Origin: Nymphaea colorata | Lineage: Eukaryota; Streptophyta; Magnoliopsida; Nymphaeales; Nymphaeaceae | Length of the DNA stretch: 64,000 nt | Direction: 5' to 3' | Assembly (NCBI RefSeq): GCF_008831285.2 | Contig: NC_045138.2 | Span: 2,458,143 to 2,522,142, forward strand | Part shown: positions 8,431-11,215 of the stretch, in pieces | Numbering within the stretch: the stretch's first letter is position 1 | Layout: every line of letters begins with the position of its first letter | Made by a program: the position numbers and the translations under genes | Notes under the pieces: generated by a model | Databases searched by the model: none | What the model saw: the letters and a program-made list of their open reading frames with translations, nothing else | What the model was told of the DNA's origin: nothing

Positions 8431-11215
8431 ATGGCTGCACCAACAGAGCAACCACTCTTGACTTCATACCAGATGGGAAAGTTCTCACTTTCCCATAGGT
8501 CAGTTTCCTAGTTTTCTCGTATTTCTTCCTATCTTCAATATATTGCTGTATTTTAAAAGAGAATGACGGGGGAAGCCATACCAGATTCCCCCAGACCTGA
8601 TTTTTTTATGTAACTAGGTTGTGTTTGAATCCGAACTGTACATTTTTCATGTCTATTTGGGTACCTGAACGAGACAAGCAACAACAAACTCTAGATAGCT
8701 GATAGCGTAATGATTGGCTGTTTTAGCCATTTATGATCCTATACTCATCTTGTGGTTGGGAATTTGTTGTGTTGGAAAGGGAGGAGGGGTTGGAAAAGCT
8801 TGAAAACAAGGGCAGCTTACAGTTAACACTGCTACAGTTGGTGGCATTCATAAAATCTCAAACAATTACGTTCACCATTGGCTTGTAGGCAGAATTGAAA
8901 GTCTGACTGTTCATTTGGCAGTGGTACTGTGGTAAGGGTTCAATTTTTTTCTAGTCTCGAGGTGGGTAGATGTACGAAGCAGAACCAGTTGATGGGGAGA
9001 GAAATTTTGGCCGTATTCTACTTAATTATGTGAATCTAGAGATAAAAAGTCAGATTATTCTCTAAAACAAGCTTCAGAATATAAGCATACAGGAAAATTT
9101 TACTTGAAAACAAGACAAGCCTGTGGATGATAGACTAATATGCCGCTATTGTAGCCAATTTATGCTGTTCTGCTTGTTAGTACTGGGTTTGTTAGAAAGG
9201 GGGGAGGGGTTGGAAAAGCTTGAAAACAAGGACAGCTTACAGTTGACACTGCTACATTTGGTGTGATTCAGAAAATCTCTCTCGCTCTCTCTTCCTCTCC
9301 CTTGCAATGGCTGCATGTTCAAAGAGATAACATATACGACTTTCATGAATTTCAGGATCGTGTTAGCACCATTGACAAGACAAAGATCCTACGGGAATAT
9401 GCCTCAGCCTCATGCCATCCTGTATTACTCCCAAAGAACTACAAAGGGTGGTCTTCTAATCAGTGAAGCCACAGGTGTCTCAGACACTGCCCAAGGGTAG
9501 ATTCTATCTCTCTTTTTGGGGAATTTTTGGTTCACGTTCTTCTTTGATTTTGCTTTAAATTTGACGTGTTTCTCTTCAAATTTTTGGTGCTGAATCATGT
9601 GATGGTCATTGTTCATTGACTTGATTCTTATTAATCATCGAAATCTGGGGTTCGCTGAAGCTATACTGATACACCTGGAATTTGGACGAAGGAACAAGTG
9701 GAGGCATGGAAGCCAATTGTTAATGCTGTTCATGAGAAGGGTGGTATATTCTTTTGCCAGATTTGGCATGTTGGAAGAGTTTCTAACACTGGTAATTATC
9801 AAACATTTGTTCCCCTGTTCGTGTCTTTTGCTACTGTAGCTAAAACAATAAGTCGATAACACTTGTTCGCATGATCCAACCATGCAAAGCAGAGACTAAG
9901 CTTTTCAACATGTTTTCTATGGTTTGACCGCTAAAACTCGCATGTCATGGTATTTGGCTTTTCCGAAATGGCTTTGGCCATGTATGTTCTTGAACAGGAC
10001 GCATTCTTGTTCAGGCCTTGCACCTGCACAGGACGAGCTGTTAGTTTTATCAATGTATTATGATATTTTTCTAGTAGATAACATTGTCCTGTTCAACGTT
10101 CGTGCTTACTGGAATATGTTTGTTACTCATAGGCTTTCAGCCTAATGGACAGTCTCCAATTTCATCTACTGATAAGCCACCAAGGAGTATGACGGGTATG
10201 GGTGACTTCTCTCCACCTCGTCGGCTGAAGACAGAAGAAATCCCCGAAATTGTCAATCACTTCAGACTTGCCGCCAGGAATGCCATTGAAGCTGGTGAGC
10301 CTAATATGACATCCTCTCTGTGTTTTGACCTTTTCTTGTTTCTTCTTCTTTATGATACTACTATGGGAGAGAGTATGTATGTAGTGCCAGTTGATGAGCT
10401 CGGCAATAATGCAAGTATATTGGAAATAAATTTATTAACTGTATAATTGTACACTTCATAATTCAGCTTACTTGTTTCGACATAAATAGATCAGTTTCAT
10501 GTTGTTAGGTTACTAGAATGAGTAACATACCCCATATTAAATATTAATATAGTACATAAGCCAATTATGAATCCACGTTCCTTTAGAAACATATACTGAT
10601 CATTGATCAAATAACCAAACTGCAGGCTTTGATGGAGTCGAGATCCATGGAGCCCATGGATATCTGTTGGAACAATTCATGAAGGACAATGTGAATGACC
10701 GGACAGATCAGTATGGAGGCAGTCTAGAGAAGCGTTGCCGCTTCGTGCTAGAAGTAGTTGAAGCAGTTTGTCAAGAAATTGGAGCAGATAAGGTTGGCAT
10801 AAGGCTTTCACCTTTTTTAGATCATGCAGATGCAGGGGACTCAGATCCTGAAGCTCTCGGCCTCTACATGATGGAAGCACTGAACAAGTATGGGCTTGTC
10901 TATGCACATGTAGTGGAACCAAGGATGGTCTTGACTGGGGAGACAATGCAAACTCCACATAGTCTGCTTCCATTTAGAAAAGCCTTCAAAGGGACTTTCA
11001 TTGCTGTTGGTGGGTATGAAAAGGAAGATGGAAACAAAGCAATTGCTGATGGTTATGCAGATTTAGTTGCATTTGGTAGACTATTCTTGGCAAACCCAGA
11101 CCTGCCTCGGAGATTCGAGCTAGATGCCCATCTCAATAAGTACGACAGGACTACCTTCTACACATCAGATCCAGTCTTTGGGTATACTGATTATCCATTC
11201 TTTGAAGAGGTCTAG
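8431..11215 (+). CDS. OPR: 12-oxophytodienoate reductase, copy b (chimeric gene)
   Basis: Exons are 8431-8498, 9356-9496, 9661-9791, 10133-10294 and 10626-11215, giving an intact 363-residue old yellow enzyme-family protein. The active-site motif is HGAHGY (His175, His178, Tyr180); FMN motifs PLTRQRSYG and [11 protein letters not shown] are intact; there is no peroxisomal tail. The N-terminus ([18 protein letters not shown]) is of the OPR-d type, while exons 2-5 are nearly identical to OPR-a. The switch lies in intron 1 at about 8,856, so the gene is a fusion of a type-B promoter and exon 1 with a type-A body. Ser12 replaces the Pro found there in the other copies (LLTPY). Splice sites look normal, so it can encode an enzyme; whether it is expressed is unknown. 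Confidence 0.9.
8771..9269 (+). repeat. Intron-1 internal duplication in OPR-b
   Basis: A segment of about 79 bases containing GGGTTGGAAAAGCTTGAAAA occurs at 8,771-8,849 and again 420 bases later at 9,191-9,269. The other three OPR genes have it once in intron 1. The first copy carries OPR-d-type bases and the second OPR-a-type bases. The duplication is the footprint of the recombination that made the chimera. Confidence 0.75.

Follow-up and report, generated by a model that had tools for sequence, protein, structure and literature searches.

OPR-b of Nymphaea colorata, a chimeric gene joined within intron 1 and the probable seam of a segmental tandem duplication

Introduction

Adjacent paralogues, one of which gives the promoter and the first exons, are joined in the human CYP11B1/CYP11B2 fusion and in the CYP21A1P/CYP21A2 chimeras, and in these cases the exchange took place at corresponding positions. 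In contrast, OPR-b, the gene of Nymphaea colorata described here, is joined at non-corresponding positions.

Judging from the account of its locus structure, the closest precedent is CsACS1G at the F locus of cucumber, a tandem duplicate in which the distal promoter is recombinant and comes from the neighbouring gene CsBCAT (PMC7072070). In that account, a complete CsBCAT copy is found after the second repeat, on the side of CsBCAT the break falls inside an intron, and the duplication, of about 30 kb, is very recent, with two SNPs from -410 to the 3' UTR (PMC7072070). Like CsACS1G, OPR-b appears to be the extra copy of a tandem duplication that carries upstream pieces of a neighbour gene. In cucumber, as far as that account goes, the donor is an unrelated gene, the other break is in the promoter and the phenotype is gynoecy, whereas in OPR-b both partners are paralogues, the break runs from intron to intron and the divergence is about 8-10%.

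The size of the plant OPR family results partly from tandem duplication, and its intron positions are conserved, with indels in the introns (PMC2688005); in the part of that article available to us, the terms 'gene conversion' and 'recombination' are absent and no chimeric OPR gene is described. Our search of the literature on OPR, Nymphaea, and chimeric genes with tandem duplication yielded no account of OPR-b. Promoter gain by such duplication is already known and OPR-b is a new example of it, a readable case in which a tandem metabolic array re-paired a promoter with the enzyme of a paralogue, with the frame kept intact by a join in a first intron of matching phase. If OPR-b is expressed like D, the gene whose front end it carries, it would amount to a natural promoter-swap experiment in oxylipin metabolism. 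Furthermore, whole-gene trees of such arrays mix two histories.

The OPR array and the enzyme encoded by OPR-b

The window (the whole 64-kb stretch of DNA that was analysed) contains four OPR (oxylipin reductase) genes, A, B (OPR-b), C and D, each with five exons on the + strand, GT-AG introns and intact frames. The array is larger than the four copies of the preliminary description: at least seven OPR genes were counted from 60 kb upstream of the window through the window end, three of them upstream of the window (given below in window coordinates).

-20622 to -18405, same strand as A-D: X0, OPR gene upstream of the window
-13069 to -9609, same strand as A-D: X1, OPR gene upstream of the window
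-6555 to -4412, same strand as A-D: X2, OPR gene upstream of the window
893..3639, + strand: gene A (gene model; 5 exons, 367 aa)
9356-9496, 9661-9791, 10133-10294 and 10626-11215, + strand: exons 2-5 of gene B (OPR-b), A/C-type (gene model)
15422..18199, + strand: gene C (gene model; 5 exons, 367 aa)
22977..25422, + strand: gene D (gene model; 5 exons, 371 aa)

X0 is the most distant of the seven genes. X1 and X2 both have D-type front ends and short first introns (119 and 170 bases, respectively), and X2 stands immediately before A in the array. Several copies of a unit of about 100 bases starting ACCTTTTATTGGTTCTTCTTC were seen by eye in intron 4 of X1 (-11651 to -10199).

The OPR-b protein, which was the only one of the set used as a query, matched the Pfam family Oxidored_FMN (PF00724) with E = 7.5e-85 over residues 13-333 of 363. 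Among the best 60 of 98 structure matches, the nearest were of the OPR1 type (1vji, 616 bits; 1icp, 585), with OPR3 entries at 431 bits or below. The protein carries HGAHGYL, aligned with 1vji and 1icp, and HGA(H/N)GYL is what we take to be the active-site stretch of OPR subgroup I. By these matches, OPR-b is a member of OPR subgroup I in the old yellow enzyme family. The gene looks maintained, given that dN/dS of OPR-b against each of the five other genes compared was 0.23-0.36 (pairwise values, averaged over both branches).

The switch from D-like to A-like sequence

The main proposal of the preliminary description, that OPR-b is chimeric and joined within intron 1, was borne out, with a sharp change from D-like to A-like sequence at TCTC 8856-8859. 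The parts of the gene around this change are as follows.

8431..8498, + strand: exon 1 of B, D-type, 68 bases, without 12 bases found in A and C; 97.1% identical to D (88.2% to X2)
8499..8855, + strand: D-derived 5' part of intron 1; 5 of 358 aligned sites differ from D over 8499-8856
8856..8859, + strand: junction microhomology TCTC, equal to D 23402-23405, A 1299-1302 and C 15832-15835 (BLAST and printed sequences)
8860..9355, + strand: A/C-derived 3' part of intron 1; 38 of 464 sites differ from A and 47 of 447 from C

When the window was compared with itself by BLAST, B 8301-8859 matched D 22847-23405 at 97.3%, and B 8856-11829 matched A 1299-4248 at 92.9%. The same switch was seen in sliding windows of 150 bases, where it was completed within about two 75-base steps. 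Identity of B to D was 94-99% in every window starting at 8099-8774 (67-98% further upstream), and beyond windows starting at 8774 D has no counterpart in intron 1; identity of B to A rose from 50-75% in windows starting at 8699-8774 to 91% at 8849. At sites where A and C agree and differ from D, B sided left of the junction with D in 50 of 56 cases (A/C, 4; neither, 2) and right of it with A/C in 150 of 159 (D, 4; neither, 5), and the D and A/C counts on the two sides differ with Fisher p = 2e-38. These sites were taken from segments in which all four genes could be aligned, and the counts do not cover intron 3, the spacers or the intron-1 sequence that D lacks.

The AU tests led to the same division. 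For the 252 columns from the TATA region to intron 1, both trees that place B beside A were rejected (p = 2.4e-9 and 1.9e-5), whereas for the 1048 columns of exons 2-5 both trees that place B beside D were rejected (p = 3.8e-8 and 6.8e-6), as they were separately in exons 2-3 (0.0019 and 0.0045) and exons 4-5 (1.2e-6 and 1.4e-4). Four trees of six genes (A, B, C, D, X1, X2) were compared; the trees and tables were drawn up without X0, and the intron-4 tree and the identity table of introns 3 and 4 also without X1. In both the left tree and the exon 2-5 tree, A and C are grouped apart from D, X1 and X2, and B alone changes place. On this sequence evidence the recombinant among the four is B, because A, C and D are continuous through the matching positions: the A/C match (1147-3629 with 15681-18192) runs unbroken through A 1299 and the A/D match (1635-2349 with 23321-24000) through D 23405 (BLAST).

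The match to A and C that had been noted right of about 8856 is present, yet B is nearer to C than to A in places. In the windows starting at 8999 and 9074, B was 94.6 and 96.6% identical to C as against 90.5 and 91.1% to A, and exon 2 was 97.2% identical to C versus 93.6% to A. The exon 2-3 tree groups B with C (support 77), which speaks against a right half derived purely from A. On the other side, the D-derived coding part of OPR-b is exon 1 alone, 68 bases.

The junction, the doubled segment and the reading frame

The junction string TAAAATCTCAAACAATTA is present in the window. As previously described, it joins non-corresponding intron positions at four shared bases, with coordinates in D and A that differ in intron position: the share of D is all of its intron 1 except the last 62 bases, and that of the A-like gene is the last approximately 490 bases. 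Because the break points of D and A do not correspond, B contains two copies of a segment of about 90 bases.

8766..8859, + strand: doubled intron segment, D-type copy, 90.4% identical to 9187-9279
9187..9279, + strand: doubled intron segment, A-type copy, 90.4% identical to 8766-8859

The 79-base repeat reported earlier lies inside this segment, in which 94 query bases align; the two copies are not identical. The left copy sides with D at 5 of 6 informative sites, and the right copy taken together with the exon 2 block sides with A/C at 12 of 13. Since 2.3% of joins drawn at random between the two introns share at least four bases, a role of the microhomology in forming the junction is suggestive, not strong.

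Exon 1 is 68 bases long in the D type and 80 bases in the A/C type; the phase at the end of exon 1 is shared by both types, and this is why the fusion stays in frame. Furthermore, given that the introns occupy the same frame position and that the splice acceptor of D was left behind, the fusion is predicted to be spliceable and to encode a whole enzyme; in the gene model, exon 1 and exons 2-5 form an unbroken frame of 363 aa, and OPR-b is presumably spliced correctly. A CT-rich tract lies about 60 bases before exon 2 (23402-23425 and its counterparts in X1, X2, A, B and C), and it bounds the junction of B as well as the differences in intron-1 length of X1 and X2 relative to D.

The upstream block and the collinear copies

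The promoter, exon 1 and early intron 1 of OPR-b match D, as was stated at the outset, but the D-like block reaches further upstream, to about 6974.

6974..8430, + strand: D-type upstream block of B (promoter, 5' leader and distal upstream DNA), matching 21366-22976 upstream of D
8324..8346, + strand: TATA region of B, GTTTGCTTTAAAAGG (printed alignment)

Identity of this block to D is 92% over 6974-7577, 83.7% with indels over 7717-8303 and 97.3% over 8301-8859. The TATA motif reads TTTAAAA in B, TATAAAA in A, C, D and X1, and CATAAAA in X2, the difference between B and D being one substitution, at 8331; apart from this change, a comparison of cis elements (TGACG, G-box, W-box, GCC and TATA) in 1 kb upstream of six genes gave no reliable pattern. 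OPR-b may be expressed from this D-type promoter.

Smaller indels aside, 1299-8859 is a head-to-tail collinear copy of 8856-23405 minus the gene C part. The collinear chain pairs 1299-6520 with 8856-13869 and 6974-8859 with 21366-23405, and 6720-6886 also matches 20491-20657; secondary matches to C and its flanks appeared in the same comparison, as paralogues would give.

1299..8859, + strand: first copy in the proposed tandem duplication, lacking the part with gene C (collinearity with 8856-13869 and 20491/21366-23405)
8856..23405, + strand: second copy in the proposed duplication, with the body of B, gene C, and from D the upstream DNA, the first exon and most of intron 1 (collinearity)
6521..6712, no strand assigned: filler without a counterpart, at the putative scar left by loss of a C copy (dispersed repeat)

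We consider it probable that OPR-b arose at the seam of a segmental tandem duplication of about 14.5 kb from which the duplicate of C was later lost. Under this scenario, the duplicated part of an ancestral A-C-D stretch would have begun within intron 1 of the A-like gene and ended within intron 1 of D. At the seam, DNA from D (its upstream region, first exon and most of intron 1) would have met intron 1 and exons 2-5 of the A-like gene, with TCTC in common. The duplicate C would then have been deleted, leaving a scar near 6520-6970, and ectopic gene conversion may later have restored the similarity of B to D over roughly 8427-8856 and to A over about 9585-10012. A single duplication, and not a series of steps, is assumed here, as are the subsequent loss of C and the repair pathway. 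The postulated duplicate of C itself is not present between A and B, and its former presence is inferred from the collinear gap. Of the mechanism suggested in the preliminary description, the chimera stands and the local misaligned exchange is less likely, given that the whole of 1299-8859 is a collinear copy, which points to a duplication seam; the case for microhomology assistance is weak.

The filler 6521-6712 has an 85% match on contig C11 and partial matches elsewhere in the genome, with none in the neighbouring intergenic stretches. It is adjoined by a second doubled segment (6244-6375 and 6728-6859). The identity of the spacer next to it, at similar levels for two spacers, counts against the duplication: 6720-6917 is 82.8% identical to the C-D spacer, and its part 6736-6859 is 84.8% identical to the B-C spacer.

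Relative divergence and probable gene conversion

If both halves of OPR-b stem from one event, equal divergence of the two is expected. In well-aligned non-coding stretches, 207 of 2635 sites differ between A and B (7.9%) and 93 of 1231 between B and D (7.6%; p = 0.80), although A/B divergence is uneven, from 0 to 22% per 250 bases, and the similar means could be partly chance. These pools were taken without 4249-4468, 4911-5625, 6713-6973, 7578-7716, the exons and the two highly similar tracts discussed below, and the stretches so omitted include the most diverged bins (13-22% in 4799-5298, 21% in 7463-7712). A recount of all non-coding sequence outside the tracts, which restores those stretches except 6713-6973, gave 270/3238 (8.3%) for A/B and 136/1346 (10.1%) for B/D (p = 0.06); with the two tracts also included, the counts are 274/3715 and 141/1704. 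On these counts the D-like block would not be younger than the A/B split, and it may look slightly older. Gene C likely predates the duplication, because in intron 1, intron 2 and exon 5 the A/B distance is smaller than the distance of C from either gene; in intron 4, A/C (0.110) is not clearly above A/B (0.107).

Two tracts of OPR-b are far more similar to a paralogue than their surroundings. In the 5' part of intron 1, B differs from D at 5 of 358 sites, a lower rate than elsewhere in the D-like block (p = 2e-6) and lower than between A and B just past the junction (p = 5e-6). The other tract is shared with A.

9585..10012, + strand: substitution-free B/A tract of 423 compared columns from intron 2 through exon 3 to intron 3 (A 2024-2450; the coordinates in B were derived from those in A)

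The longest run in 2000 shuffles was 202 columns, as against the 423 observed, and introns 2 and 3 together differ between A and B at 4 of 477 sites versus 207 of 2635 elsewhere (p = 3e-11). Both tracts would be explained by later gene conversion. A run of 117 columns in the B/D piece, picked up by permutation, was set aside, the alignment there containing a misaligned stretch (6713-6962) that is 50% different. Elsewhere in the array, D 23468-23761 compared with X1 -12879 to -12586 shows 99.3% identity in exon 2 and 95.4% in intron 2, with only 85.4% in exon 5, and this exon 2-intron 2 patch is likely a conversion tract. Conversion thus described seems to be common in the array and to have partly overwritten the record.

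Alternative explanations

An identical final layout would be obtained if B had started as a full A-type copy and about 2 kb from upstream of D had then replaced the DNA from its spacer through promoter and exon 1 into the early part of intron 1, either by template switching or by ectopic conversion with two non-homologous ends. The difference between B and D, which is 6.5-8.2% in bins 6963-7462 and 7963-8212, drops towards the junction to 2.4% and 0.7% in the bins from 8463, a gradient that recent copying might show. However, such a replacement requires two non-homologous ends within one copying event and predicts a D-like block younger than the A/B split, whereas 6974-8430 is at least as diverged (93/1231 versus 207/2635; 136/1346 versus 270/3238), and we hold it to be unlikely while still according it some weight. 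It is improbable, to a slightly greater degree, that in a longer array a complete D-like gene preceded a complete A-like one and that the two were fused by a deletion from intron 1 to intron 1. The front end of B is nearest to that of D, not X2 (exon 1, 97.1% versus 88.2%), so that an extra copy of D must be assumed, and among the seven genes (60 kb upstream of the window to the window end) no further D copy was found before an A-like copy; on the other hand, the order of a D-type gene followed by A does exist, in X2 and A, and plain end-joining with a 4-base microhomology gives the same join, making a deletion equal to the duplication at the junction itself.

Tandem arrays are prone to misjoins, and a junction of this kind might be an assembly artefact in which two loci or alleles were put together. 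Neither half, however, is near-identical to its relative (14 of 553 sites differ on the D side by the junction, 38 of 464 on the A side), and we regard a misjoin as very improbable. A search of the same genome for the continuation expected of one found 5 matches for intron 4 of D and 4 for the promoter of A, all in the array and no orphan, in a lossy search where the A-promoter query missed the promoter of B itself and a diverged orphan may escape. That the D-type front end is ancestral and that A and C each gained another one is scarcely credible and was rejected: the front ends of X1 and X2 do group with B and D, not with A and C, in the left tree, but retention leaves the doubled intron segment unexplained and does not account for a B/D distance of 0.014 in the 5' part of intron 1 versus 0.261 in intron 4 (K80). 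More generally, we see a slim chance that intron 1 is a shuffling point, at which promoters and exon 1 would have been repeatedly re-paired with enzyme bodies at the CT-rich tract and the products spread by conversion.

Other features of the window

Scans for tRNA genes and Rfam families across the 64-kb window found nothing. A TCGAG-rich repeat is present at 20836-21293 and 41617-42055 (82% alike), with an inverted copy just upstream of gene A. A young copia-type LTR retrotransposon occupies 44173-49115; its 369-base LTRs are 99.7% identical, a 5-base target duplication, GTGAC, was recognised by eye, and its coding sequence lies in two overlapping frames with matches to gag, integrase and reverse transcriptase.
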